From Anaerolineae bacterium (GTDB lineage: Bacteria > Chloroflexota > Anaerolineae > Anaerolineales > Villigracilaceae), in NCBI GenBank assembly GCA_017303655.1, contig JAFLCE010000018.1, positions 1 through 53,360 of the forward strand: a stretch of 53,360 nucleotides of DNA, given 5' to 3'. Shown piece by piece: positions 19,090 to 44,650 of the stretch. Numbering within the stretch: position 1 is the first letter of the stretch; every line of letters begins with the position of its first letter. Under the pieces are notes generated by a model that saw only the letters and a program-made list of their open reading frames with translations, made no database searches and was not told the origin of the DNA. A program made the translations under genes and the position numbers.

Positions 19090-20016
19090 TTACGCCACAT
19101 CAAACAATCTTGCCAAGATGGCTTTTTGGGCGTGCAAACGGTTATGCGCCTGCTGAAAGATGACGGATTGGGGACCATCTGCCACGTCATCGGTCAATTC
19201 CTGATTACGATGTGCAGGCAGGCAGTGCATCACAATTGCATCTGGGTCGGCTTCGGCGACTAGCCCGGCATTGACCTGATACGGAGGGAAAATCTTTTCA
19301 CGCTTGGCAGATTCCTCTTCCTGCCCCATACTGGTCCAGGTGTCGGTATAAATGACATGCGCCTTCTTAACCGCTTCATGCGGGTCGCGCAGAAAGGTCA
19401 ACTTGCTTTTTGTTTTCTTGGCAATATTTTCACCAATAGCGATAGCCTTCGGGTCAAGGTCATAGCCTTCAGGGCTGGCGAGTGTAAAATTCCAACCCAG
19501 CAAGGCAGAGACATGCAAAAGCGAGACCGCCACATTGTTCCCATCCCCCAGGTAAGTAATATTCAAACCTTTAGATTTCTTGCCGAACTTCTCAATAATA
19601 GTCAACGCATCCGCCATACCCTGACAAGGATGATTGTAGTCGCTTAAACCGTTAATAACGGGAATATCCGCCCACTTTGCAAGCTCCACCACATGCGCAT
19701 GGTCGAAAGTGCGAGCCATCAAGCCTTGTACATAACCGGAAAGCACCCTTGCTACATCCGCAATCGACTCACGTTGACCCAACCCAATCTCATTCGGAGA
19801 AAGATACAAAGCATCACCACCGCAATGTCGCATGGCCATGTCAAATGACACACGCGTTCGCAGGCTCGGCTTCTGAAAGACCATTCCCAACACCTTGCCG
19901 CGGAAGATCGCCTTATTTCCTTTTTTGAAATACTGCTTCTTCAATTTAATGGCAAGATTAAGCAAATCTTTAACTTCGTCGGTTGTGTAATCGGAAATAG
20001 CTAAAAAGTCCTTCAT
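19090..20016 (-). CDS. argF: ornithine carbamoyltransferase
   Basis: The 308-residue length is typical. The carbamoyl phosphate site is S51-L-R-T-R55 ([11 protein letters not shown]), with DHAHV for H-x-Q-like contacts, [16 protein letters not shown], the ornithine loop and the catalytic HCLPAHR near the C-terminus. It makes citrulline from ornithine and carbamoyl phosphate, or the reverse when used catabolically. GGAGAC precedes the ATG. No other arginine biosynthesis gene is present; rocD directly downstream argues for an ornithine-degrading or branch-point context. A palindrome lies 20 bases upstream. Confidence 0.94.
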
Positions 20017-24520: not shown

Positions 24521-27500
24521 TTACTTATTCACCAGAACAAAGGTTCCGGTGAAATTTACAGTTGCGACAAACCTCAGTTTGTCATCCAGATGCCCACCTT
24601 GTCCAACATTTCGTCCATCTCCGAGCTGAAGTCCATCGGTTAATTCGACCCATTCGACGCCATTCCAATATAAGATTGCCAAATCTTCTCTTAAAATTTC
24701 TTCCGGAACAACGAAAATCAAACTCATAAATGGGAATGTTTGATTAGTAACTTCAACCCAACTACTGCCGTTCCAGTATATATAGAGCGAGCCTGAGGTA
24801 TCAGAGGCGCTAGAGAAATCAACCAGACCTGACTCATTTCCGAGCCCAACCAATCTGCCTTCATTGTAAATATCCAAGATGAAAGCTGAGACAAAAGTTG
24901 ATTCATCAGGAAGCGGGTCCATTAATCCTGTTTCTGGAATTTCAGCCAATCGTGCAGAGTCAATAATCGGGCATGGAATGTACACGCTATCGCCATTTTC
25001 AAGTGTAAGAACAGTTCCACTGTAGGAAGTGCAATTCAAATCAACAATTTGTCGATCCAACTCATTCTTTTCATTAATAGGAAGTGGGGGCAATTGAATT
25101 TCTGGAATGTCTTCATCATCCCCGTCATCGTCATCATCGTCGTCACCATCGCTTGGGAAAACAGGGTAATTAAAACAACCATTTGAAATTAGATTTAAGC
25201 GGTCCCCATTGACAGCCAGATTATTATCAATGTCATTCCCAAAATCTGTGCCGATCAATATCAGATATCCATTCAAATCTGTATCGATTTGAGTACCACC
25301 ATTATTTATTACGACACTACACAAAACAGTAGCATCTCCTGGCGCATCAAGATACAGCCCGCCTGTGCCATTATTTTGCACATTTGAGTTTTCAATGTAG
25401 ATATTATTGCCTGCATATACCAACATCCCCTCATTCGTATTACCGCTAAAAATATTAGTACCAAGCAGATTAAAGTTCCCTGAAGTGGAAAACTCTGCAC
25501 CTACCCCATTAGAGCTAGAGGAAATGCTTTCCGCATTAATATCACCCAATGACGATCCTACGATCCCATAATTGGTGTTCGTAGCAAAAAAGTTTACGCC
25601 CGCAATTGTAAGTGTACCGCTTGTTGACGTAAGGTTTGCGCCATCTGTAGCATTCCCAGTTGCCGTCAAATTCGCTACTGAAGCATTCCCCACTGATTCA
25701 AGGGAAATACCTATATCGCCATTGTTATTAAAAGCGTTTATCCCAGATAATGTTACAGTTCCAGTAAACGTTAACTCTGCTCCACTGCCACCATTCAGTT
25801 CGGCAGTGATGTTTTCAAGCAAGACACCATTAACAGCCTCAATCAATAAGCCAGAGTTTCTATTGTTGTTAAACTGGTTTGACCCTGCAAGAGTAAGGTC
25901 TCCAAGACTGTTCACTTCTAACCCATTACCAACCCCGCCAGCGCCATTTGAATCAGCAGAAATATTTTCCAAATTTACATTTCCAGCTGCATCAACGAAC
26001 AAACCGTTCTCTTGATTTCCGTCAAAGCTATTCACTCCTGACACAGTGACTGTGCTAAGAGAATTCAGCTCTGCGCCACTGGTGCCGTTGGTAGAGGCAG
26101 TAATATTCTCAATGTCAATAGAACCTGTTGCGTCGATAAACAATCCGGCAATTTGATTATCCTCAAATATATTAGTGCCACTCATCACTACGCTTCCAGA
26201 GGAGGATAATTCTGCTCCACTGCCGTCATTATCATTTGCAGAGATATTTTCCACATCGATAACAGCATTTATGCCAGTTACAGAAATGTTCAAACCAGAA
26301 TCGGTGTTGTTCTCAAAAATGTTATTTCCAGTAATGGTTACTCCCAAAACGGACTGCAGATCAGCCCCATAACCGCCATTTCCAGATGCTGTTAAATTTT
26401 CGGCATCAATACTACCAAGCGCCTCGGCGTATAAACCATCTGTAGAATTATTATTGAATTGATTGATACCCGTAATGGATATATCTCCGCCAGCTTGAAG
26501 GATGACGCTATTGGCTTCGGCATCAAGGTTTTCTGCATCAATATTACCTGTCGTTTCAATATACAAACCGTTGCCAGTATTTGTGTCGAAACTGTTTGTC
26601 CCTAATATTGAGGCATTTGCAGCATAGAGTTCAACACCGTCTTCGCCGTTGGTTTCTGCCGAAATATTTTCAGCATCAATATTTCCAATTGCTTCAATAT
26701 ATAAACCATCATTTGCATTATTGTCAAAAATATTACTTCCGACAATCGAAACATTTGCACCCGTGTTGATCTCGGCGCCACTACCAATCCCACCAGCGCC
26801 ATTTTGGGTGGCAGAAATATTTTCCAAATCAACGTCGCCAGTAGCCTCCACGTATAAGCCGGTGGCATTATTACTATCAAATAGATTGGTACCAGAAATA
26901 ATCACACTGCCACCAGCGTATATTTCGGCACCACCAGCGTCATTACTTGTAACATCCATATCAGAAAGGTCGATATCACCATCAGCGTTAACAACCAAAC
27001 CTGTGCTGGTGTTGTCTGAGAAACTGCTAGCACCAGAAACAACTACATCACTAAGCGAGGTGATGTCTGCACCAGAAATTCCATTTTGGTCAGCCGTAAC
27101 ATTGGCAATATCAACAACGCCATCCGCATTAATATCCAAGCCTGACCCTGTGTTGCCAGAGAAGTTATTGGTTCCAGTTATGGTTACATTTCCGCCAGTA
27201 ATTCCAGTTAGCAAGACAGTCAATTCAACGCCATTGCTGGAAACACCAGTATTATTCGTAGAGCTAATATCTTCGAGAAAAATATCAGCGTCTGTTGTTT
27301 CTATAGTTAACCCAGTGGAGTTGGTTGTAATCGACAGATCATTTACAATAACATCAGCTCCCCAATTTTGAATCGTGATCGGGACTGAAAAAGCTGTGGA
27401 GCCAGTAATAGTTCCAGCAGCCGTTCCATTCCAACCACCCTGGATTGTCAGCGAGAAATTACTCCATGTAGTGAAATTAGTATTTGTACCATCAATGTCC

Positions 27501-28072
27501 ACAGCTGAAGCAGACAGGTCTGTACCAGCTGTAATCCAAATTACCCCATCTGCAGCAGGTTCAGCAATATTACCGCTATCTACGTCATCGATCAAATCAA
27601 ACAACGTAGCATATGAAGCCGTGCATCCACCGGTGTTGGGAATTGGCGGGACTCCATCTGGGCACCAAATAGGATCTCCCACCAAAATGGCTTCAGCAGC
27701 GGTTTGTGTGGCTAGAGGTTCAACTTGATCACCTACTTGAATCACAATTTCTGTCTCTGATGGGAGACTTGCTAGAAGTTCAGGCACTGTGACATCTGGC
27801 GTTTCAGGCTCAGGGTCTGACTCTGGTGCTTCAGTTGAAATTGGCGACTCTATTGGGAGAACTTCATCAGCAGGGGCTGTTGGTTCCTCAGTTTGCTGAA
27901 CTTCAGTAGGAACCGGCTCCTCTGTAGGAACTTCTACAGGAGGCAAAACCACTTCTTCGGTTGGGGCTGGAGGCGTTGAATCATCCGCTACAACGTTAGC
28001 AGGAATCGATAGAGCAAGAATCAATACTGCGCTAATTGCGAGGATAAAAGTAGGATATCGCCTGATTTTCAT
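24521..28072 (-). CDS. large secreted right-handed beta-helix repeat protein
   Basis: The 1183-residue product has a signal peptide (about 1-29), a Pro/Glu/Thr-rich stalk (about 30-105), and a degenerate entry region with cysteines. Then come 13 tandem repeats of about 47 residues (298-915). Each repeat opens with a G-(T/S)-N-x-F-x-x-N-x-x-x-GL segment and contains an (E/D)N(I/L)(S/T)A-x-x-NG segment, i.e. two stacked coils. A poly-Asp linker (GDDDDDDDGDDED) and a C-terminal domain with two W-V-E-(V/L)-T motifs follow. This is a pectate-lyase-like solenoid, expected at the cell surface as an adhesin or polysaccharide-binding protein. No catalytic residues or LPXTG anchor are seen. It borders the polysaccharide locus. 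Confidence 0.85.
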   Translation of the reverse strand: MKIRRYPTFILAISAVLILALSIPANVVADDSTPPAPTEEVVLPPVEVPTEEPVPTEVQQTEEPTAPADEVLPIESPISTEAPESDPEPETPDVTVPELLASLPSETEIVIQVGDQVEPLATQTAAEAILVGDPIWCPDGVPPIPNTGGCTASYATLFDLIDDVDSGNIAEPAADGVIWITAGTDLSASAVDIDGTNTNFTTWSNFSLTIQGGWNGTAAGTITGSTAFSVPITIQNWGADVIVNDLSITTNSTGLTIETTDADIFLEDISSTNNTGVSSNGVELTVLLTGITGGNVTITGTNNFSGNTGSGLDINADGVVDIANVTADQNGISGADITSLSDVVVSGASSFSDNTSTGLVVNADGDIDLSDMDVTSNDAGGAEIYAGGSVIISGTNLFDSNNATGLYVEATGDVDLENISATQNGAGGIGSGAEINTGANVSIVGSNIFDNNANDGLYIEAIGNIDAENISAETNGEDGVELYAANASILGTNSFDTNTGNGLYIETTGNIDAENLDAEANSVILQAGGDISITGINQFNNNSTDGLYAEALGSIDAENLTASGNGGYGADLQSVLGVTITGNNIFENNTDSGLNISVTGINAVIDVENISANDNDGSGAELSSSGSVVMSGTNIFEDNQIAGLFIDATGSIDIENITASTNGTSGAELNSLSTVTVSGVNSFDGNQENGLFVDAAGNVNLENISADSNGAGGVGNGLEVNSLGDLTLAGSNQFNNNRNSGLLIEAVNGVLLENITAELNGGSGAELTFTGTVTLSGINAFNNNGDIGISLESVGNASVANLTATGNATDGANLTSTSGTLTIAGVNFFATNTNYGIVGSSLGDINAESISSSSNGVGAEFSTSGNFNLLGTNIFSGNTNEGMLVYAGNNIYIENSNVQNNGTGGLYLDAPGDATVLCSVVINNGGTQIDTDLNGYLILIGTDFGNDIDNNLAVNGDRLNLISNGCFNYPVFPSDGDDDDDDDGDDEDIPEIQLPPLPINEKNELDRQIVDLNCTSYSGTVLTLENGDSVYIPCPIIDSARLAEIPETGLMDPLPDESTFVSAFILDIYNEGRLVGLGNESGLVDFSSASDTSGSLYIYWNGSSWVEVTNQTFPFMSLIFVVPEEILREDLAILYWNGVEWVELTDGLQLGDGRNVGQGGHLDDKLRFVATVNFTGTFVLVNK
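25328..27181 (-). repeat. 13 tandem coding repeats of the beta-helix protein
   Basis: Residues 298-915 of the protein divide into 13 units of 44-51 residues. The asparagine ladder N-x-F-x-x-N and the GL(Y/F/N)(I/V)(E/D)A segment are present in most units. The units have diverged, so the DNA copies are not identical. Confidence 0.8.
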
Positions 28073-28303: not shown

Positions 28304-29416
28304 ATGCTGAAAGCCCATATAAAAAAAATACAGGACTTAAAATCTTTCAAAAAACTTGATACGCAGTGGAATAACCTTCTGGCGATCAGCCCTATAAAAA
28401 GCGCGTTTCTTTCTTGGGAGTGGTTATATAGTTGGTGGAATGTTTACGGAGATGATAGAAAGCTGTGGATCGTTAGTGTCTGGAAGGATGAGAAGCTTGT
28501 TGGTTTAGCTCCACTTATGTTAGAAACCAGGAAAAAATCAGGGGCAATGCTAAAGTTTCTGGTTAACATGGGAACCCCGCAAAGTGACGCGGGTGGTTTT
28601 TTGTTTGATCCATCCATTGAAGGTGTAGTAGACAAACTTGTCACCTACATTCTTCAACATAAATCAGAATGGGATATTGCCGAGTTGAATGTTCTCCATT
28701 ATGACGGAAAGGAGCGAGAAGCCCTTACCCGCCTTGCCAGCCCGGAGAAGTTCTACATTAAAGAAGAAATCAATGACCACTATTATGTTGGGTTGGATAC
28801 TGATTGGGAAATATACAATAAACGACTGAGTAAAAAATTCTTACATAATCTGCGACGCGCTTCTAGACTGGCAGACGAGATGGGTTTAGTTGAAATCCGT
28901 CACTATACTGGCAGTTCGGTTAAGTCAGAATTAATTCAGGAATTGATCAAGATCAATCGCCAATCTCATTATCCACGTTTATATCGCTCTAAAGAAGAAC
29001 AAGGGTTGCTTTTTGAGCTAATTCGTAACGGCGGCGAGAATCACAACTGGCTGGATATTTACATCCTACATATCAATAATGAGGCAATCGCATACGAATA
29101 TGGTTTTGTACATGAAGGTCGATTTGAATCGTGGCGTGCCGGATTCAACACTTCTATGCCTCAAAATATTTCAGTCGGTAAGTTACTTTCTATGAAAGTC
29201 ATCCAAAAGTGCATCCAGGAAGGGTATCAAGAAATCGACTTCCTGCGCGGCGATGAAGCATACAAATTAGAATGGAAGCCAGATCAAAAAAAATATAGTA
29301 ATTTACGTTTGTTTAATAAAGGCAAATTATCGGCAATATTATCCTATCGCTGGCTTCACAATGTAAAACCCATCATCAAAGAAATCAAAGGAAGCATTCG
29401 TCGTAGTAAACAATAA
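28304..29416 (+). CDS. CelD/BioF2-like GNAT-fold acyltransferase, copy 1
   Basis: The 370-residue protein carries the N-terminal signature SAFLSWEWLYSWWNVYG (about 33-49), found in CelD-type acetyltransferases of polysaccharide loci. KLVGLAPLMLE follows. A C-terminal GNAT-like half contains GRFESWRAGFNTS, SVGKLLSMKVIQKC and EIDFLRGDEAYKLEWKP. Such enzymes are thought to N-acylate sugars or lipids during exopolysaccharide assembly. There is no signal peptide; it acts in the cytoplasm. It is paralogous to the next gene along its whole length. AGAG lies upstream of the ATG. Confidence 0.75.
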   Translation: MLKAHIKKIQDLKSFKKLDTQWNNLLAISPIKSAFLSWEWLYSWWNVYGDDRKLWIVSVWKDEKLVGLAPLMLETRKKSGAMLKFLVNMGTPQSDAGGFLFDPSIEGVVDKLVTYILQHKSEWDIAELNVLHYDGKEREALTRLASPEKFYIKEEINDHYYVGLDTDWEIYNKRLSKKFLHNLRRASRLADEMGLVEIRHYTGSSVKSELIQELIKINRQSHYPRLYRSKEEQGLLFELIRNGGENHNWLDIYILHINNEAIAYEYGFVHEGRFESWRAGFNTSMPQNISVGKLLSMKVIQKCIQEGYQEIDFLRGDEAYKLEWKPDQKKYSNLRLFNKGKLSAILSYRWLHNVKPIIKEIKGSIRRSKQ

Positions 29417-29479: not shown

Positions 29480-30580
29480 ATGCAAGAAATCATTGTTCGA
29501 CACATTCGCACCTTGGAAGAATTTGCAAGTTTGAAGGAAGAATGGGGAAAACTTATCGAAGCGAGAGAACAAAAGACCGCCTTCCTTACCTGGGAGTGGC
29601 TGCATGCATGGTGGAAAAATTACGGCGAAAAAAAAGAACTTTGGCTTCTTACAACCTGGCATGAAGGTAAGTTAGTAGGAGCCGCGCCATTAATGCTTGG
29701 AGTTGAAAAACGTTTGGGGTTATCGTTTCGTCATTTGCAATCACTCGGTAAACCGAATACAGATGAATGGGATGTTCTGGCTCTTTCAAACCCAGAAGCA
29801 GTTGTTCAAGCAATATTCAGCTATATCAACGACAACAAAAATCAGTGGGATTCGATCGAGTTGTGTGAGCTAAATTCGGAATCTTCGATGGTTCCGCTTA
29901 TCAAAAGCCAGTTCGGCGCATTGAGCTTACATATACTTCATTCTACAAACGACCATTACTATATATCCACTGCAGAAGCCTGGGATGATTATTGGAAATC
30001 ACTTTCCAAGAACACACGTGATAGCATTGAAAAAAGATACAAGCAAGGGAAAAAGAAACTCAATCTTGAATTCGAATACATTCGCGGAAGTGATGTCACC
30101 TGGCAACACTTTGATACTATTTTTGCAATCAATGAAAAAGGCAGATATCCAGAAAAATATGGGTCTGAACAGGAAAGATCCTTTCTCAAAGACCTTGTGG
30201 CAGGCATGCATGAAAAGCAGTGGCTAGAGATATTTTTCCTTCACATGGATAATCAACCTGTAGCTTTTGATTATGGGTTTAACATAGATGGAAAATTTGA
30301 AGACTGGCGTACTGGCTATGATATGAATTACTCCACCCAGGCAGCTGGAAAGATTTTGCTTTACCTTATGCTAAAACAACAATTTGAAGGCACCCAGCAC
30401 CATTTTGACTTCCTGCGCGGTGCCTACGAATATAAAACCCAATGGAATCCCAAAGGACGGGAGTTTAGCACGATTATTGCAATCAAGCGATTCCATTTAC
30501 CCGCCAGACTTATCTTAGATATCCTGCCACGTATATGGAGGTGGATTAAACTCAATATATTACGCAGGCGACCAAATTAG
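29480..30580 (+). CDS. CelD/BioF2-like GNAT-fold acyltransferase, copy 2
   Basis: The 366-residue protein has the same organisation as its upstream neighbour: TAFLTWEWLHAWWKNYGEKKELW near residues 31-53, KLVGAAPLMLG, NDHYYIST in place of NDHYYVGL, DGKFEDWRTGYDMN, AAGKILLYLMLKQQ and FDFLRGAYEYKTQWNP. Retention of the same blocks shows tandem duplication followed by divergence, perhaps to acylate two different residues. AGAGGT precedes the ATG. Its 3' end overlaps the convergent deacetylase gene by four bases, leaving no room for a terminator. Confidence 0.75.
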   Translation: MQEIIVRHIRTLEEFASLKEEWGKLIEAREQKTAFLTWEWLHAWWKNYGEKKELWLLTTWHEGKLVGAAPLMLGVEKRLGLSFRHLQSLGKPNTDEWDVLALSNPEAVVQAIFSYINDNKNQWDSIELCELNSESSMVPLIKSQFGALSLHILHSTNDHYYISTAEAWDDYWKSLSKNTRDSIEKRYKQGKKKLNLEFEYIRGSDVTWQHFDTIFAINEKGRYPEKYGSEQERSFLKDLVAGMHEKQWLEIFFLHMDNQPVAFDYGFNIDGKFEDWRTGYDMNYSTQAAGKILLYLMLKQQFEGTQHHFDFLRGAYEYKTQWNPKGREFSTIIAIKRFHLPARLILDILPRIWRWIKLNILRRRPN

Positions 30581-31554
30581 CTACGCGTCTTGTTGCCCAC
30601 CTCCCCCATCGTCAATGATTGCATTCCATATAACGAACGCAAAGCAGCATATTCAGAAAGTATCTTTTCAAGAAACGCAAAGTTATCTTCAAGATTTTCA
30701 GCGAAGTCTTCTGGATGCCACCACAAATGGAATATTTGGCCCGACTGAGCCGCCTCACGCATGGAATGTTTGATACGATTTAGCCGCAATGGCTCGATCA
30801 CTCTTAAACGCCTCGAAACCGGACGCAAATACCTGCTCGCTGGAACATTGACTGGGTACCCATCTGAAGGCTGGGGAAATGCATTTGCACCCGAGACATT
30901 CAGATAAGCATCCAATACACGCATGATACGACGTGACCACTGGCGGTGCTCACTCCGTTTTGAAGGTGTACGAAACCAGAGCGATTCATTTCCACGAAAG
31001 GTTTTAATCCCATTACGGGCACAGACGTCCAAATATTCTTTTGAATATTGGTTCCTTGGAAATACTATACTTTCAACCTTGCATTGATATTTCTCTGCAG
31101 CCTTCATGGCTGCTCGAAGGTCCGCTTCAAAATCTTTTACAGTTTGTCCATTTTCTAGACAATAATAATGTGAGAAAGTATGTGTCCCTAATTCTTGATG
31201 AGGCGTGTTTAATATCTGCCGAATTAATGAGGGAGCAAAATGCAGGGGGTCTGCTGTTTCATTCTCACCAACTTCTTTGGAAAGATTATCGTATGGCGAG
31301 AGAAAACCATTTTCATATTTTGGTTTTAGCTCGGGCAAACCTGCCTGCATTTCAGTACTTGAATCAAAGAAGAGAAATCCTACCGTTGCCCAAGTAGCAT
31401 GAATATCATGCTTTTGAAACATGCCCAATAGCCTGGGAACGACCTGACGAGTCGGCATCAAATCTTTTCGATAACCGGTCGATTCGAGGTCACGTACCCC
31501 CCAAACAAGTTCAAAATCCAACGAGATGACTAAGGCGCCAGGAAGATTGGGCAT
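30577..31554 (-). CDS. polysaccharide deacetylase family protein (NodB-like)
   Basis: The 325-residue protein has a carbohydrate esterase 4-type fold. The first motif is ISLDFELVWG (D13) in place of the usual TFDDG. H125 and H129 in LGTHTFSHYYC form the metal-binding H-x3-H, and W/H-rich IFHLWWHPEDFAENL near the C-terminus supplies the last motif. It would remove acetyl groups from N-acetylated sugars of the nascent or mature polysaccharide. No signal peptide is seen, so it may act in the cytoplasm or need another route. GAGGAA precedes the ATG. It is the last gene of the minus-strand polysaccharide cluster. Confidence 0.85.
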   Translation of the reverse strand: MPNLPGALVISLDFELVWGVRDLESTGYRKDLMPTRQVVPRLLGMFQKHDIHATWATVGFLFFDSSTEMQAGLPELKPKYENGFLSPYDNLSKEVGENETADPLHFAPSLIRQILNTPHQELGTHTFSHYYCLENGQTVKDFEADLRAAMKAAEKYQCKVESIVFPRNQYSKEYLDVCARNGIKTFRGNESLWFRTPSKRSEHRQWSRRIMRVLDAYLNVSGANAFPQPSDGYPVNVPASRYLRPVSRRLRVIEPLRLNRIKHSMREAAQSGQIFHLWWHPEDFAENLEDNFAFLEKILSEYAALRSLYGMQSLTMGEVGNKTRS

Positions 31555-31565
31555 GATTCCTCAAA

Positions 31566-33038
31566 TTATTCGATCACTTCAAAATCTGTAGCAGTGGGGT
31601 CTATATTGCCACCAGCGTCAGAATTGACTTTTAGGGTACTCAATAAATTATAGCCCGTAGAGGCGTCCCAGACACCCTCATTGGCGAATGCAATGGCATA
31701 GCGTGGATTATCTTGAAGTGTCTCATATGGATCTGGTAACCACAGCGATACGTTGTATTCACCTGTAGGCAGTGTAGCAGGCAAGCGAACTTTGACTTCG
31801 AATGAGTTATTACCAGACAACCACAACCGGGGTTCAATAGGCAGTAAAATCTCAAAGCTTTCAACTCCGCTCAGGACGAGGTACACAGGTCTCGGGTTAA
31901 TGGGAGGCGCAAATCCATCATTGTTTAAATTTACAGTTAGATGCAAAATACCGCCTGGACTGGCTTCGGTATTCATCGTCGATTCTGTTAGGGAGAGGCG
32001 GTACCCCATTCGGTCCTCGATTTCTGCATAACAACCTTGTTCTTCCCAAGATGCAAGCACATCAGGATGCCAACCGTCGCCCAGCTCTGTAAAATGCAGT
32101 AAGCTCATTTCGCTCAATGCAGTTGGGCAGTCACTGCGCGGCGGATTTGGCGCGCAACTTTCACCGCCAACCGGAACAAATTGAGTGGTTTGTCCAAGGT
32201 AAGATAACTCTTCACCAAATGTGAAGACACCATCACGAGCATAGGTTTTCTCATCATTTTCACTTGCGAGAAAACAGTCGTTATGAAACCCAACGCGGGA
32301 CTGATAACTCCCCGAATACGCAAATTCCTCCGTTAGCGGAGTTGGGAAAACGCTCATAATATCCACGGGGTAACGAAAAAGTACAGAGCGATCAGAGGGC
32401 ATCGCATCGAGCAAGGCAGTCATAATTTGAAGCTTCGCTTGCTGGTCTTTATCCAGTCCATTCGTTGAAGCATGCCACTCACCCCAGGCACCAACAAAAC
32501 CAGCTTCTAACCAGACAATGACATCGGCGTTGGTTCTAAGAACTGGTGACACCTGTTCAATATGGCGAAGAATTTGTTCAAGTGACGCATCTGGCTCAGG
32601 GTTAGGATAGGGTCCATCATTGTATGCAAATCTTAAGATGGTTTTGACACCGCTTCCGCTTGACCGCATAGCATCAAAATAAGAATTCATTTGATCCAGT
32701 AGCTCTTGCGGAATGTCGCTTTCACGGTATTCATCCAACATGACGGTTGTATAAATCAGAGTAACACCATCTTCATAATATTCGTTGAAATCCAAATCAT
32801 CAAGATCACCTTCAGAGGAAAAGCCTCTTTCAGGATTTTGGAGAAATTCATCCGACACAATATATGAAGTGTTGGCACGAGATGGTTCAACCGCGGGTGT
32901 AGCTGTAAAAGTAGGGGGTGGCAAAGTAGAGGTCGGGGGAGGCGGTGTCTCTATAGGTATTTGTGTTGGCGCAAGTCCACTTGTACACGAACTGGTAAAA
33001 AACAAGAGAAGCGCGCCCATTAAAGTCAATTTTTTCAT
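31566..33038 (-). CDS. DUF4832/DUF4874 lipoprotein (glycoside hydrolase-like barrel)
   Basis: Start at 33038 (MKKLTLMG) behind GGAGAT, giving 490 residues. The signal peptide ends in the lipobox FTSSC, followed by a Pro/Thr-rich linker. The body matches the DUF4874-DUF4832 pair: LQNPERGFSSE (about 67-77), TLRFAYNDG-type strand, VWLEAGFVGAWGEWH, and a C-terminal beta domain with LHLTVNLNNDGFAPPINPRP. The barrel resembles glycoside hydrolases acting on surface glycans, but activity is unproven. It is anchored outside the cell. The gene lies between the BcsB-like gene and the deacetylase gene. Confidence 0.8.
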   Translation of the reverse strand: MKKLTLMGALLLFFTSSCTSGLAPTQIPIETPPPPTSTLPPPTFTATPAVEPSRANTSYIVSDEFLQNPERGFSSEGDLDDLDFNEYYEDGVTLIYTTVMLDEYRESDIPQELLDQMNSYFDAMRSSGSGVKTILRFAYNDGPYPNPEPDASLEQILRHIEQVSPVLRTNADVIVWLEAGFVGAWGEWHASTNGLDKDQQAKLQIMTALLDAMPSDRSVLFRYPVDIMSVFPTPLTEEFAYSGSYQSRVGFHNDCFLASENDEKTYARDGVFTFGEELSYLGQTTQFVPVGGESCAPNPPRSDCPTALSEMSLLHFTELGDGWHPDVLASWEEQGCYAEIEDRMGYRLSLTESTMNTEASPGGILHLTVNLNNDGFAPPINPRPVYLVLSGVESFEILLPIEPRLWLSGNNSFEVKVRLPATLPTGEYNVSLWLPDPYETLQDNPRYAIAFANEGVWDASTGYNLLSTLKVNSDAGGNIDPTATDFEVIE

Positions 33039-33076
33039 GTTTATCTCCATGCTTAACGAAGACGATAGTCCTATAT

Positions 33077-33122
33077 AACACCGGTTTAAGCTGAATAAAT
33101 GCATCCAGCTTAAACCGGTGTT
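33077..33122 (-). terminator. long hairpin between the BcsB-like and DUF4832 genes
   Basis: AACACCGGTTTAAGCTG (33077-33093) pairs perfectly with CAGCTTAAACCGGTGTT (33106-33122) around a 12-base loop. There is no long T-run, so it could be a weak terminator, an RNA-stabilising hairpin or a processing site 40 bases before the next start. Confidence 0.5.
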
Positions 33123-35438: not shown

Positions 35439-36587
35439 TTACAACGATATTGCTTTTTCGAGATAGACTTCCTCAATCTTACTAATCATCCGTTCAAGTG
35501 AAAAAACACGAGAAACCTCTTCCAATGCCAGGCGCTTCATAGCCGAAGCCCGGTCTGGGTTCTGTAGGACAGATCGTATTGCATTTGAGACAGCACTCAC
35601 ATCTGCAACCGGTACAAGGATACCATGTCCACCATCGCCAATTAATTCCCGTGCGCCTAAATTATCTGAAGCGATGACAGGCACTCCGGCAGAAAACGCC
35701 TCTAGCAAGACCAAAGGGTTGGCTTCCCAACGAGAGAGAAGTAAGAAACAATTAAAGATATTGTAGAGGCGGTATGCATCATCACGATGACCAAGCCAAT
35801 GGACCGAATCTTTCAAACCAAGTTCATTGGTTAATGCCTGCGCTTCTTCTTGAAGCGGACCCGAACCAACCCAAACAAAATGCAAGTCAGAAAAATCATT
35901 TTTCAACTCGGCAGCAACTCGCACAAAATCTATTGGCAGTTTGGGAACCGCCAACCGTCCTACCGTACCAATCACCTGTGCAGTATCTGGAATACCAAGA
36001 GAACGCTTAATCTCAAGCACATCAGCAGGCTGTTGATATAGAACCGGATCAATACCTGTTGGAATTACAGAATAAAGCTCTGGTTTCCCCACCCCATATT
36101 TCAGGGCAAGATCACGTTCATGTTTTGCGACAGCAATAATCTGTGTAGTAAATAGGGCGGCGAACTTTTCAAATAACGCTACCACACGAGCCACCAACGG
36201 CTTTGAGCCTTCATGAAATGCAAAATTATGAGGAGAATATATAACCGGGATTCCAGTGCCGACCGCAGCTATTCGTATTAGGAAACCAGGTTTTGAAGCA
36301 TGTGCATGAATAAGATCGTACCGCTCGCGTCGAATCCGCGCTGACAATTGTATCAACACCCGAGCATCGGTCAACGGGTTGATTTTGTAACGATTCATGG
36401 CAAGGCTGAACGCATCCACCTTGTAATTCTGCCGCAACTCCTCTGCAAATTCCTGCCCATTTTCTGATAAACACGCCACTGTGATATCGAATTTCTCACG
36501 ATCCAAGCCTTTTACCAACATACGGATATAGGATGCAACGCCACCTGTCGATTTGGAAACTAAAAGAAGCTTTAAGCGGCGATTCAT
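35439..36587 (-). CDS. glycosyltransferase family 4 (GT-B)
   Basis: The 382-residue protein has the GT4 layout: SKSTGGVASYIRMLVKGLDRE at the start, DLIHAHASKPGFLIRIAA in the acceptor half, IPTGID, VIGTVGRLAVPKLP at the donor domain opening, and the EX7E element SRWEANPLVLLEAFSAGVPVIA. It adds a sugar from a nucleotide donor to the lipid-linked repeat unit on the cytoplasmic face. Its start overlaps the upstream glycosyltransferase stop by four bases. The sugar is not predictable. Confidence 0.9.
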   Translation of the reverse strand: MNRRLKLLLVSKSTGGVASYIRMLVKGLDREKFDITVACLSENGQEFAEELRQNYKVDAFSLAMNRYKINPLTDARVLIQLSARIRRERYDLIHAHASKPGFLIRIAAVGTGIPVIYSPHNFAFHEGSKPLVARVVALFEKFAALFTTQIIAVAKHERDLALKYGVGKPELYSVIPTGIDPVLYQQPADVLEIKRSLGIPDTAQVIGTVGRLAVPKLPIDFVRVAAELKNDFSDLHFVWVGSGPLQEEAQALTNELGLKDSVHWLGHRDDAYRLYNIFNCFLLLSRWEANPLVLLEAFSAGVPVIASDNLGARELIGDGGHGILVPVADVSAVSNAIRSVLQNPDRASAMKRLALEEVSRVFSLERMISKIEEVYLEKAISL

Positions 36588-37717
36588 TTTGAGACAAGCC
36601 CCTTCTTCGTCAAGAGTTCCATATACAAACTGGAAACCAGATCAATCATATGATCAAGACTGTAATGATCGCTCACACGCTGCAACCCCGCCTGCCCCAT
36701 TTTCTCTCGGAGGCCCGGGTCACGTGCAAGGCGCAAACAAGCATTTGCCAAAGCCTTATGATCAGAAGTAGGAACCAATAGCGTTGTCACATCTGATTGG
36801 ACAACACCCACAACCCCGTCTACAGTGGTCGAAACCACTGGCAATGAGGCAGCCATTGCCTCCAGCAGGATAACGGGGAGTCCTTCCCAAAGAGATGAAA
36901 GCACTAAAACATCCAGCGCGTTAAGAATGGCAGGCACATCTTTGCGCATTCCAGCAAAGATCACAGAGGAGGAAATGCCCAGGTTTTTCGTCTGCAGTTC
37001 AAGGTCCGATTGAAGCGGACCGTCTCCCACGATCAAGAAGCGTGCCTCTGGCTGAAGCTTAATAATTTCAGCGGCAGCCAGCAAAAACATCGCTACATTT
37101 TTTTGCGGTTTCAACCTGCCTACGATCCCAAACAAGGGGGCTGACTCGGCAATACCAAATTCGACTCGGATCTGCTTCGCCTGTTCTTCGTAGCCAGAAA
37201 ATGCACGTACATTTACGCCATTATTTATAACGAGTATTTTTTCTTCTGGAACACCCGTTTTGGAACGGTGAAATTCTTTCACCTCGGGCGATACGGCGAT
37301 TAGCTGGTCTGCCCACATAGCAGTAGCCCCATACAAATGTCCCATAAGGCGGTTATTTGCCCAAGTATCGTTATTATGCAGTGTAGACACTACAACTGGA
37401 ACACCAGCAAGGCGAGCGGCAAGACGCCCATGAAAATCGCTCTTAAACAAATGAGTATGTACTACTTGTGGAGGATCAGCACGCCAAAGCTTTATCATTT
37501 TCATCATGAAGAACGGGTCGACAAGACCAAACCGGGAAATTCGTATTAATTTCAAATTTTTATTTGCAAGTTCTTGTACAAAAGGTCCTGGCGTACTATA
37601 ACCAACCGTAATACGATACCCGTGGTCTTCCAAGCCAGAGGCGAGATCTCTTAATAAGGTTTCAGCCCCGCCAAACGTGAGCCCGTCAATCATATGGAAT
37701 ATGTGTATCTTTTCCAT
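36584..37717 (-). CDS. glycosyltransferase family 4 (GT-B)
   Basis: The 377-residue protein starts IFHMIDGLTFGGAETLLRDLA. It carries VVHTHLFKSDFHGRLAARLAG, INNGVNV, LFGIVGRLKPQKNVAMFL and the EX7E element SLWEGLPVILLEAMAASLPVV. The GGAE loop near the N-terminus and the donor-domain Glu pair are typical of retaining GT4 enzymes. It is coupled to the next gene by an ATGA overlap and lies five bases after the preceding glycosyltransferase gene, so the three act in one operon building the repeat unit. Confidence 0.92.
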   Translation of the reverse strand: MEKIHIFHMIDGLTFGGAETLLRDLASGLEDHGYRITVGYSTPGPFVQELANKNLKLIRISRFGLVDPFFMMKMIKLWRADPPQVVHTHLFKSDFHGRLAARLAGVPVVVSTLHNNDTWANNRLMGHLYGATAMWADQLIAVSPEVKEFHRSKTGVPEEKILVINNGVNVRAFSGYEEQAKQIRVEFGIAESAPLFGIVGRLKPQKNVAMFLLAAAEIIKLQPEARFLIVGDGPLQSDLELQTKNLGISSSVIFAGMRKDVPAILNALDVLVLSSLWEGLPVILLEAMAASLPVVSTTVDGVVGVVQSDVTTLLVPTSDHKALANACLRLARDPGLREKMGQAGLQRVSDHYSLDHMIDLVSSLYMELLTKKGLVSK

Positions 37718-37721
37718 ATCT

Positions 37722-38876
37722 TTATCTTGAAACCTCGCTCATTAATTCAGAATACAATTTCTCGTACTGAGATCCCACTACATTAAAATCATACATGGAC
37801 AAAACGCGTTCATGAGCTTTTGTGCCAAGTTCTTTACGCAGACTTTCTGTAGTTGCCATACGGACTAATGCATCTGCCCATTCAGAAACATTTGCAACTG
37901 GAACCATCAAACCATACTTGCCATGTTCCAAGACCTCATTGTTGCCGCCTACTGGAGTGGCAAGACAAGGTAAGCCTGATGCCATGGCTTCCAAAAGAGC
38001 ATTGGATATACCCTCCGTTATTGAAGGCAGCAAGAACATATCAGCTGCCTGCAAATATGGGCGGACGTTTTTTTGATTGCCAGCAAAAGAAATATTCGCT
38101 TGAACATCCAGGTTCTGAACCTGGGCTTCAAGCTTCTCACGTTCTGGTCCATCACCCACAATAACAAAATGAATTGAAGGATGTTTATCTTTTGCAATGT
38201 GTATAGCATCTATAGTCGTAGACAGGGATTTTACAGGGTCCAATCGTCCTATAAAAAGAGCCACACTTTTATCAACGAGATTGAGAGAATGCTTTGCATC
38301 TTCTCTTTCTTTTTGACTTGATAAATATGATGCACCGTCAATACCATTATTCATGATACGGACACGTTCGGCAGGGACACCAGCCTGCAAAGCCTCATCG
38401 CGCATGACATCCGTTAAAGCAATTACCTTATGTGCCCAGCGACGGATTGCCCATAAACGAAGGCGTCCGCGCCAGGTACTCATGGAAACTTGAATATCAC
38501 CAATTGCATTACTCCCCCCCAGCTTAACAATCACTTTCTTTCCTAGCAACCTGCCAATCAAGACGCCAATAAATGCAGGTCCAAATGCAAGATGGGCATG
38601 AAGAATCTGATATTGATTTCTCATTCGAAAAAGAGTCATCATAGCAAAAAACATAAAGGTGATGGTGCGTATTTTTCCTGACCCAGTGGTTAGAGGACGC
38701 ACAATCTGAAAACCGTTACGTTCTTCATTTTCTGGCAATCCATCTCCACGGCGGGTTACCACCCAAACATTCCAACCATGATGGGCAAGATAAGTAGATA
38801 AGCGCTCAGCTTGCGTTTCTGCGCCGCCCACCGGTAAAGGCGGGAATTCGTTTACTAGCATAACCACTCCAGCCAT
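37722..38876 (-). CDS. glycosyltransferase family 4 (GT-B)
   Basis: The 384-residue protein opens MLVNEFPPLPVGGAETQAERLS. It contains ILHAHLAFGPAFIGVLIGRLL, IMNNGIDGASYL, ALFIGRLDPVKSLSTTIDAI and the EX7E element SITEGISNALLEAMASGLPCLA with PVGGNNEVL. This is a standard retaining GT4 arrangement. Its ATG overlaps the flippase stop by one base (TAATG). It is the first of three glycosyltransferase genes following the flippase gene. Confidence 0.92.
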   Translation of the reverse strand: MAGVVMLVNEFPPLPVGGAETQAERLSTYLAHHGWNVWVVTRRGDGLPENEERNGFQIVRPLTTGSGKIRTITFMFFAMMTLFRMRNQYQILHAHLAFGPAFIGVLIGRLLGKKVIVKLGGSNAIGDIQVSMSTWRGRLRLWAIRRWAHKVIALTDVMRDEALQAGVPAERVRIMNNGIDGASYLSSQKEREDAKHSLNLVDKSVALFIGRLDPVKSLSTTIDAIHIAKDKHPSIHFVIVGDGPEREKLEAQVQNLDVQANISFAGNQKNVRPYLQAADMFLLPSITEGISNALLEAMASGLPCLATPVGGNNEVLEHGKYGLMVPVANVSEWADALVRMATTESLRKELGTKAHERVLSMYDFNVVGSQYEKLYSELMSEVSR

Positions 38877-41860: not shown

Positions 41861-43003
41861 CTAGCTTTCGCCATCTTTCTGAACCCAGAATGGGTTGCGT
41901 AATTCCCAAACATATACAGGATTCGAGGGGTCACGCTTAGACTGATCCAAAGCCTCGGTCGTTTTGTTTAGCAACTCATTTGCCGAAATGCCATTACTAT
42001 ATTCCCCGCCGCCAACATGGGGATCAAGATTAACAGTCAGGTCGTATTGATATAAGTCAATCGGAGTTTGCAGTGCCTGACAAATACGCTTAAAAATACG
42101 GCTCGCGGCTTCGCCAGTAGTCATTGGTAGCATGACAATGAAGCTATTTTTTTGCCAGCGCCCAATATTATCGTTGCCACGCAATTCTCTTCGCAAGATA
42201 TCCGTTACATTGCCTAACAAACGTTGAACGCCTACAGACGGCAATGTCTCAAAGTAATCATCAACACCGCTCAATTCAATGATCCCAATAGACATGACAC
42301 CAGAGGGATTATTTGAGATCTGATCCTCCAATAAACGGCTAAAGAAACGATTATTGTAAACACCAGTATCAGAATCCAACTGTAAACGACGCTGATATGT
42401 TTCAAGAGGAATGCGAATTTGTTCACTCAGAATCGCAAGGGCAGCACCCACAGCCAAACCTAACACAAGAGAGAGAGCAGCATCCTGAATGGGCTTAGGG
42501 CTGATCGGATCCGAAGGGACAATCGCCTGGTCCAAAAAGTTTAGTTCATAAACACGGTTCAAACTACGAGTAAAGAGAATGGTTTGATATCCCAAAGCAT
42601 TAGCCAGATCCGCAGCAAGACGTGGATCTGGACCAGTAACACTTAACTCCAAAACGCTTGACTCAGGTAAAGCTACAGCAAGAATGATGTACTCTTTTTC
42701 CGGAAATCCCTCAACGCCCAAGTAGGTCAGAGACTCATTGAGTATTTTCTTACTGGACATGATCTCGGTATATGTTGCTACCACCGAACGAAGGTCGAGC
42801 GTTTCCAAGCCTGCGATCAGCACCTCAGGGTTTCCTTCGCTAGTAAGCAAAGATCCTGGTGTCAAAATCAGACGAGAGGTCGCCTTGTACTGTGGAACAG
42901 ATACATAGGAGACGATCAAGGATGCCATCAATGCAACAAGAGCAACCAGGACAATTAACCACCATCCGCGCTGCAACATACGAAAATAAAGTTTTAATTC
43001 CAT
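41861..43003 (-). CDS. Wzz chain-length regulator fused to a degenerate GGDEF domain
   Basis: The 380-residue protein has an N-terminal Wzz/polysaccharide co-polymerase part: helix 13-36, then YKATSRLILTPG and ALPESSVLELSVTGPDPRLAADLAN, and a second helix at about 174-194 preceded by PSDPISPKP. A cytoplasmic GGDEF-like domain follows (about 208-370): DSDTGVYNNRFFSRLL (210-225) matches the D-x-LTGLYNRR entry. RWQKNSFIVMLP (282-293) occupies the place of RYGGDEF, so four of the five signature residues are lost. It should not make cyclic di-GMP but may bind a nucleotide or partner. Wzz proteins normally end in a tyrosine kinase or nothing; this fusion is unusual. Confidence 0.85.
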   Translation of the reverse strand: MELKLYFRMLQRGWWLIVLVALVALMASLIVSYVSVPQYKATSRLILTPGSLLTSEGNPEVLIAGLETLDLRSVVATYTEIMSSKKILNESLTYLGVEGFPEKEYIILAVALPESSVLELSVTGPDPRLAADLANALGYQTILFTRSLNRVYELNFLDQAIVPSDPISPKPIQDAALSLVLGLAVGAALAILSEQIRIPLETYQRRLQLDSDTGVYNNRFFSRLLEDQISNNPSGVMSIGIIELSGVDDYFETLPSVGVQRLLGNVTDILRRELRGNDNIGRWQKNSFIVMLPMTTGEAASRIFKRICQALQTPIDLYQYDLTVNLDPHVGGGEYSNGISANELLNKTTEALDQSKRDPSNPVYVWELRNPFWVQKDGES

Positions 43004-43116
43004 GCTCTCTCTTCCTTAGTTCATGAGGTTTTAAGAAAAAAAAAAATTAACTTAAAAAAGTCTACCTTGCATTTTCGCAAGGATAATAACAATACAATAT
43101 CATTTTCACAAACGCA

Positions 43117-43834: not shown

Positions 43835-44650
43835 TCAGCTCTTCTCTGAACGTTCCCTAGCAACCAATAACAGATCTTCAAAAGTCAGCGCCTCATCAGG
43901 AAAAGCAGATGCGCCATAAGTGACATGCAACCCGGTGCGTTCTTCAACAATTTTTAGAAGGCGAACCCCTAAGGAGTTTGCACTTTCAAGATTCGTTTCA
44001 GGGCAAAGAACAATATATCGACCCACTTGGTCACGCATCAATAAGTCAGTTTGCCGGATCGCACTACTAACAGCCTGCCCAATCCGCGCATTTGAGAGAC
44101 GAGTAAGAATATCTCGTTGAAGACTTTTAAGCATTTCCTGGATGCTTTCTTCATCTTTTGGAATCGCGTTAATAATCAACAGCGATAACGGACGGTGGTA
44201 ACGGCGGCTACGTCCAAATTCTGTCTTAATGACATCACCCGCTTTTTCCAGCTCCATACCGCGGTTTGGAAAAGTACCTTGGGCAAGGATATCCATAAGG
44301 GATTCGGACCGTTCAATAGCAACAGCCAATTGATATGAAATCCAGACCCCAGCCTCTAAAAGAACCATCTCAAGTAGTACAATTTCAACATCAAGTGCTG
44401 CTGTGGTTGCACGATCAATCAGACGTAACAACGCAAAATAGATCGCACCCCAAAAAACCATCGGTATTACCACAGGCACCTTATGTAAGTAAGGCACAAA
44501 AACCATGATCGTTACTGCTAACAGCGACGTTAAGTAAAAATATGACGCAAAATTAATGATGGGCGTGTCAGAACGATCCAACAAACCCAACACTAAGATA
44601 ATAAATAAATAAAACGCAACCCAAAAAAAAGATCTACGAAGATCGCTCAA
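43835..44650 (-). CDS. membrane protein with degenerate GGDEF-like domain
   Basis: The 271-residue product has three or four N-terminal hydrophobic segments (about 8-24, 35-54, 59-78, 88-112). A cytoplasmic domain follows with EFGRSRRYHRPLSLLIINAI (about 144-163), RQTDLLMRDQVGRYIVLCPET (199-219) and VTYGASAFPDEALTFEDLLLVAR (243-265). The last two align by eye with the GGDEF strand-turn-strand and the C-terminal Gva-yp-e-eLL-AD part of diguanylate cyclases. The signature GGDEF is replaced by residues around DQVGRY, so it is probably inactive. The start is TTG at 44650, supported by GGAGAAGG seven bases upstream. It heads the minus-strand polysaccharide cluster. Confidence 0.7.
   Translation of the reverse strand: MSDLRRSFFWVAFYLFIILVLGLLDRSDTPIINFASYFYLTSLLAVTIMVFVPYLHKVPVVIPMVFWGAIYFALLRLIDRATTAALDVEIVLLEMVLLEAGVWISYQLAVAIERSESLMDILAQGTFPNRGMELEKAGDVIKTEFGRSRRYHRPLSLLIINAIPKDEESIQEMLKSLQRDILTRLSNARIGQAVSSAIRQTDLLMRDQVGRYIVLCPETNLESANSLGVRLLKIVEERTGLHVTYGASAFPDEALTFEDLLLVARERSEKS

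Follow-up and report, generated by a model that had tools for sequence, protein, structure and literature searches.

A Wzz-type co-polymerase fused to a degenerate GGDEF domain with a conserved I-site in Anaerolineae, a candidate cyclic di-GMP receptor

Locus and gene content

A protein joining a Wzz polysaccharide co-polymerase domain to a degenerate GGDEF domain is encoded in an Anaerolineae bacterium (GCA_017303655.1, contig JAFLCE010000018.1; genome completeness, 93.55%; contamination, 5.82%). Here, we report the features of this gene, its neighbors, and its relatives, starting from a stretch of 53,360 nt, which as a whole is called the window (Table 1). The fusion is encoded alongside Wzx, Wzy, and an initiating transferase, and the gene order is TMdG, transferase, fusion, Wzy, Wzx, glycosyltransferases, and BcsB, where TMdG is a membrane protein with a degenerate GGDEF domain of its own.

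Table 1. Coordinates of the fusion gene, its domains and motifs, and the surrounding cluster in the window.
Feature	Position	Strand	Evidence and remarks
Wzz/PCP-pseudo-GGDEF fusion, 380 aa	41861..43003	-	ORF, ATG start, Pfam, co-linear relatives
Wzz domain PF02706, residues 2-91, first transmembrane helix inside	42731..43000	-	Pfam, hydropathy
Residues 171-208, single unbroken predicted helix from second transmembrane segment to GGDEF domain	42380..42493	-	AlphaFold2, hydropathy
Degenerate GGDEF domain PF00990, residues 209-361	41921..42379	-	Pfam
I-site RxxD, R275-G-N-D278	42170..42181	-	Kept in 74/74 distinct fusions; codon use
Catalytic motif remnant QKNSF (284-288), where GG[DE]EF is expected	42140..42154	-	GG[DE]EF in 0/74
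R306, third residue of the I-site, matching PleD R390	42086..42088	-	69/74 fusions; alignment with the genome's own cyclases
Initiating phosphoglycosyl transferase, PF02397	43117..43797	-	214.3 bits; often upstream of fusion in relatives
Wzy polymerase/ligase family, PF04932	40336..41820	-	Pfam; next downstream gene in 36/58 fusion loci
Wzx-like flippase, PF13440/PF01943	38876..40339	-	Pfam
Three glycosyltransferases, Glycos_transf_1/Glyco_transf_4	35439..38876	-	Pfam
BcsB-like protein, PF03170	33170..35392	-	Pfam; no BcsA seen alongside
TMdG, 271 aa, four predicted membrane helices and second degenerate GGDEF domain	43835..44650	-	
TMdG I-site RxxD, R199-Q-T-D202	44045..44056	-	Kept in 32/32, window copy included

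Both domains of the fusion scored well above their Pfam cut-offs (PF02706, 42.5 versus 25.5 bits; PF00990, 47.9 versus 23.8 bits), a GNVR match at residues 156 to 192 fell under its cut-off, and no kinase domain was found in the protein with Pfam. Two hydrophobic helices were located by hydropathy (about residues 16 to 34 and about 175 to 193). AlphaFold2 (pLDDT, 85.9; pTM, 0.56) and structure comparison gave a GGDEF fold over about residues 209 to 366; the model is of one chain, and the comparison bears mainly on the GGDEF half, the N-terminal half being Wzz from its sequence profiles. A sequence-only reading of the same DNA had placed the frame exactly, giving no strand, and had described a two-helix Wzz co-polymerase followed by a GGDEF domain at residues 208 to 370 with RWQKNSF in place of RYGGDEF; its description holds throughout, the replaced motif being R282-W-Q-K-N-S-F288. 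The RxxD of the fusion and the I-site protein upstream (TMdG) were both missed in that reading.

Three forms of Wzz occur in this genome: the fusion to a dead GGDEF domain, one fused to a kinase-type ATPase (C1; 512 aa; 126.8 bits to TIGR01007, above cut-off), and a bare one (C85; 211 aa). Besides the BcsB-like protein, the genome has no other BcsB match. Its five PilZ matches all lie in short frames (127 to 173 aa), so that no PilZ-bearing cellulose synthase was seen in it.

A c-di-GMP riboswitch was considered and set aside, as an Rfam scan of window positions 20000 to 50000 returned only a tRNA above the gathering score. Between 40000 and 46000, promoter-like sites were near shuffle level (14 versus 10.9; SD, 2.7) and terminator-like sites were rarer than in shuffles, suggesting that such sites are no commoner in this region than chance would give. 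The 113-bp gap before the fusion gene (43004 to 43116, minus strand) holds a promoter-like pair with a TG extension (43111 to 43083) and a hairpin resembling a terminator (43082 to 43065).

Distribution and history of the fusion

Matches co-linear with nearly the whole protein were found in 27 of 61 genomes, its own included (28 matches), which argues that the fusion is real and not a chance joining. Of these, 27 were retrieved (L028 to L054) and 26 used, L051 being a near-copy of L050; Pfam (E up to 0.01) found GGDEF in all 26 and Wzz in 25. Among 400 genomes of the phylum, 27 had a match, consisting of 20 full fusions (spanning seven genera), 6 Wzz-only proteins, and 1 cut by a contig end. 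GTDB species genomes were scanned with a single N-terminal pattern lying outside the GGDEF half and confirmed by tblastn with the whole protein; 58 of 64 loci held a full-length fusion. Pooling the 61 genomes, the 400 phylum genomes, and the GTDB scan gave 74 distinct full-length fusions, with two further copies (L208 and L209) kept outside the set. Isolates carrying the fusion are Pelolinea submarina MO-CFX1, Levilinea saccharolytica KIBI-1, and Herpetosiphon aurantiacus 114-95T.

Outside Chloroflexota, 346 genomes from the phylum of a Nakamurella genome gave 16 matches (E up to 1e-25), one of which (L171) spans both halves, and 345 genomes from the phylum of a Syntrophaceae genome gave one GGDEF-only match and no fusion (five or six candidates per genome were scored in these and in the 400-genome sample). 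Viral contigs held no relative. A quick tree built on the Wzz half placed 71 of the 74 fused rows in one group (SH-aLRT, 98), and the three remaining, divergent fusions fell outside it on long branches beside unfused forms, a topology consistent with one main fusion event and some number of others. Rows labeled Nitrosomonas, Flavobacteriales, and Planctomycetota nested within Chloroflexota groups and are probably mis-binned contigs.

Gene neighborhoods were compared at the 58 loci. With overlapping genes tolerated in the count, the fusion was followed by Wzy in 36, by BcsB in 21, and by a contig end in 1, and a BcsB-like gene lay within 10 kb downstream in 37 of the 41 loci whose sequence reached far enough. 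A phmmer search with one BY-kinase query (E up to 1e-5) found no match in the flanks of the 58 loci (10 kb at most, less where a contig ended); the same query did match L117, L119, and L120.

The TMdG gene lies two genes upstream of the fusion in the window. Across the 32 TMdG rows (a count that takes in one 90-aa fragment, L073), GG[DE]EF was absent, and the residue 31 positions after the I-site Arg (R230) was Arg in 29 rows and Lys in the other 3; one further TMdG, L203, is separate from the 32 and has YATD at the I-site. Within the same 400 Chloroflexota genomes, TMdG was found in 27, the Wzz family (fused or not) in 27, and both in 22, against 1.8 expected by a figure that ignores kinship. 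At loci where BcsB comes next, TMdG stood near the fusion in only 2 of 16, and it is thus no obligatory neighbor. Unfused Wzz relatives with the same order of TMdG, transferase, and Wzz were seen in another Chloroflexota lineage (L159) and in an actinobacterial genome (L172, transferase named by eye). The link to the messenger may therefore predate the fusion, and the unfused unit may be the older form of the system.

Conservation of the I-site and loss of the catalytic site

In the fusion, the RxxD has its Arg 9 and its Asp 6 residues upstream of the lost GGDEF motif (LRGND-NIGRW-QKNSF), and R306 stands 31 residues after R275, the spacing of R359 and R390 in PleD. The I-site of cyclases is an RxxD at -9/-6 before GGDEF, according to the cited part of PMC2170427. 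R275 and D278 were kept in all 74 fusions and R306 in 69, five lacking the third Arg; GG[DE]EF occurred nowhere in any of the 74 proteins. Only 3 of the 161 columns of the GGDEF half were invariant (D210, R275, and D278), and the four replaced catalytic columns ranked 78, 106, 124, and 132. The probability that both prespecified I-site columns fall among the three invariant ones is about 2e-4 (3/161 × 2/160), a figure that ignores relatedness; the sequences are akin to each other, so the 74 fusions are not 74 independent events. Across the family, all six Arg codons occur at R275 and both Asp codons at D278, with synonymous change and zero replacement change; such codon variety would be expected of residues held by selection.

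Exceptions were found. The second fusion copy of Pelolinea submarina (L208) has KGND instead of RGND, and the remote actinobacterial fusion (L171, genome G532) has EETD and VGGGRF, its I-site Arg gone. The other copy outside the set, L209, has REED. The KGND and EETD copies mean that the GGDEF domain can persist without the exact I-site; from its sequence, the retained dead domain of L171 may either have another role or have lost binding.

The genome's own cyclases served for comparison. It has 24 PF00990 matches, of which 17 carry GG[DE]EF; these 17 genes and the 5 PilZ matches are other signaling parts present in it. RxxD is present in 14 of the 17 and absent from 3, so that it is common in active cyclases too, and RxxD in a single copy would prove little by itself. 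Sixteen of the 17 were used as references (L020, without RxxD, was left out). All 16 have the PleD positions D327, K332, N335, H340, D344, G368, G369, E/D370, and E371, and these are replaced in nearly all 74 fusions (N335 mostly by I/Y/L, D344 mostly by Q/N, D327 mostly by E/Y/H/R, and G368 mostly by D/S/N). Some active-site columns survive, D336 still being D in 45 of 74 and F372 still F in 70 of 74; the E371 position is E in 3 of 74, and a few members have G or D at single positions. The third I-site Arg is better kept in the fusions (69/74) than in the reference active cyclases (10/16). Two other degenerate GGDEF matches of this genome (G000), at C123:21318-21770 and C13:7697-7999, lack GG[DE]EF and keep RPTD and RPED, respectively.

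The claim of the sequence-only reading that the domain is inactive is thus borne out at the level of sequence. Of the two findings that it had said would undo it, neither was made, as AlphaFold2 predicts the GGDEF fold and none of the 74 homologues has GG[DE]EF.

Comparison with known systems

PelD of Pseudomonas aeruginosa and Bacillus cereus resembles the fusion in being a membrane protein from an exopolysaccharide operon with a dead GGDEF domain, RxxD, and a third Arg (cited parts of PMC2170427 and PMC7112168); its binding requires R367, D370, and R402, and it is reported to bind no GTP (same part of PMC2170427). TMdG is like PelD in placing four membrane helices before a dead GGDEF domain (PelD topology as given in part of PMC8461298). 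Unlike the fusion, PelD has a GAF domain, belongs to the Pel operon (Pel is treated as synthase-dependent rather than Wzx/Wzy), and has no Wzz fusion. Membership of the PelD family was considered and rejected: no GAF domain was listed, and PF16963 (PelD_GGDEF) gave weak matches to a single fusion out of 26 (E, 0.0054), to 2 of 23 TMdG proteins (best E, 0.012), and to the TMdG of L159. No PelD entry was among the 50 matches listed in either structure comparison, which does not count against membership.

PssE, of the Listeria monocytogenes Pss EPS system, likewise has a dead GGDEF (DKDDA) in an EPS operon, with RxxD five residues upstream; it binds c-di-GMP with a Kd of 0.79 μM and is needed for EPS (cited part of PMC4125290). 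It differs in being a separate operon protein, for which the same part of PMC4125290 describes no co-polymerase domain. The dead GGDEF of BcsE has a functional I-site, to which c-di-GMP binds as a monomer or a dimer (cited part of PMC7439463), but BcsE is cytosolic, has other N-terminal domains, and belongs to the enterobacterial cellulose synthase pathway. Closest in logic is Alg44, in which the co-polymerase itself bears a receptor domain for c-di-GMP (cited part of PMC8461298). In Alg44, PilZ replaces the GGDEF I-site, and alginate is synthase-dependent. Alg44 is also not known to be a Wzz protein.

The N-terminal co-polymerase domain is shared with PCP-2a proteins (Wzc) and with CapA-CapB, and the fusion-family profile reaches Wzc chains (9xgv; E, 4.6e-5). 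PCP-2a proteins have a BY-kinase in the cytoplasm, where the fusion has the dead GGDEF domain, and assignment to PCP-2a would call for a kinase fused or in the cluster; none was found in the protein or, with the one query, in the flanks of the 58 loci. This agrees with the sequence-only reading, which had set the tyrosine kinase partner of Wzz elsewhere against a pseudo-enzyme here.

Interpretation

We consider it probable that the fusion is a Wzz/CapA-type co-polymerase whose cytoplasmic dead GGDEF domain is a c-di-GMP receptor, acting through the kept I-site. The dead GGDEF domains with an I-site in PelD, PssE, and BcsE bind c-di-GMP, in part in dimeric form, and thereby act as switches of exopolysaccharide production; the mechanism proposed for the fusion is modeled on them. 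The co-polymerase would cross the membrane with two helices and have a small part outside the cytoplasm, with its GGDEF module on the cytoplasmic side, where c-di-GMP, probably as an intercalated dimer, would bind R275, D278, and R306 and bridge neighboring subunits of a co-polymerase ring. The signal would run along the continuous helix (residues 171 to 208) into the second membrane helix and alter the metering of Wzy by the ring, so that polymer length and output might be switched on or re-set. Activation as the direction of this effect is guessed from PelD and PssE, and control of chain length is assumed from the Wzz half. Its likely partner would be TMdG, a second membrane protein of the same operon with an equivalent I-site, whose target might be the phosphoglycosyl transferase or the ring.

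Sensing of GTP or another purine nucleotide through the old active site is very unlikely. In its favor, GTP binding occurs in some degenerate GGDEF domains, the fold is predicted to be whole, and many members retain D at D336; the remaining GTP and metal positions that were checked, however, are replaced in nearly all members, and the catalytic columns rank among the variable ones. Since positions kept in every reference cyclase are mostly replaced and the I-site triad is kept, sensing of c-di-GMP is favored over that of GTP, and the nucleotide sensing suggested by the sequence-only reading can be sharpened accordingly, the conserved residues pointing to c-di-GMP at the inhibitory site. That the co-polymerase is coupled to a diguanylate cyclase, active by itself or through a partner, to which the few members with E, G, or D at single positions might lend some color, is scarcely credible against the loss of GG[DE]EF from the whole set and of most metal and GTP positions.

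The dead domain could also be a nucleotide-free oligomerization or docking module, for the co-polymerase or for Wzy/TMdG, with the I-site kept for fold or interface. GGDEF domains can act as dimer modules, and the KGND and EETD copies show that the domain outlives the exact site; yet a working GGDEF domain can dispense with RxxD, as three of the genome's own GG[DE]EF genes do, and it would be surprising for a docking surface to single out R, D, and the +31 R of the ligand site in two separate protein families. We judge such a module rather unlikely. A reading of the fusion as a relic without function, in which the tail of a Wzz is decaying, would fit the free variation of the catalytic motif and the unfused relatives beside TMdG (L159 and L172), but is extremely unlikely given the open frame, the conservation of I-site and fold columns in fusions of seven genera, and the purifying selection seen at R275 and D278.

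A wider reading is that Anaerolineae and Herpetosiphon have a kinase-free, c-di-GMP-gated form of Wzx/Wzy assembly, in which two I-site receptors, the fused co-polymerase and its four-helix partner, would replace tyrosine-kinase cycling in setting polymer length and a BcsB-like protein would be present without cellulose synthase; we hold the case for this to be evenly balanced. It would be a different way of controlling chain length, as the sequence-only reading had supposed.

Direct switching by c-di-GMP is established for synthase-dependent polysaccharides. For Wzx/Wzy-dependent pathways, post-translational control was termed "incompletely understood" in a 2025 paper (cited part of PMC12802240). 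A c-di-GMP receptor built into a co-polymerase would tie the messenger directly to polymer assembly, in a testable way, and would be the first of its kind within the machinery of Wzx/Wzy assembly. No description of a Wzz-GGDEF fusion or of a c-di-GMP receptor in a Wzx/Wzy pathway was found in searches of open-access literature (most subscription journals lie outside it), in agreement with the earlier statement that no such system is described. By the same searches, the receptor module is already known, and what appears to be new is its fusion to Wzz, its place in the kinase seat of a Wzx/Wzy system, and the presence of another I-site protein as its companion. A dead GGDEF domain with RxxD in an EPS operon is suggested as a rule for finding more such receptors.

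Other genes near the cluster

Near the polysaccharide cluster, a 1,183-aa protein (24521 to 28072, minus strand) has five right-handed beta-helix stretches (PF13229), and inspection by eye suggests an N-terminus like a signal sequence and a segment rich in Asp; no tandem repeats were found between 24000 and 29000. Two tandem Acetyltransf_6 (GNAT) genes (28304 to 29416 and 29480 to 30580) lie on the plus strand, opposite to the cluster. At the cluster end, a DUF4874-DUF4832 protein (31566 to 33104, minus strand) adjoins a polysaccharide deacetylase (30577 to 31554), and both are possible polymer-processing enzymes.
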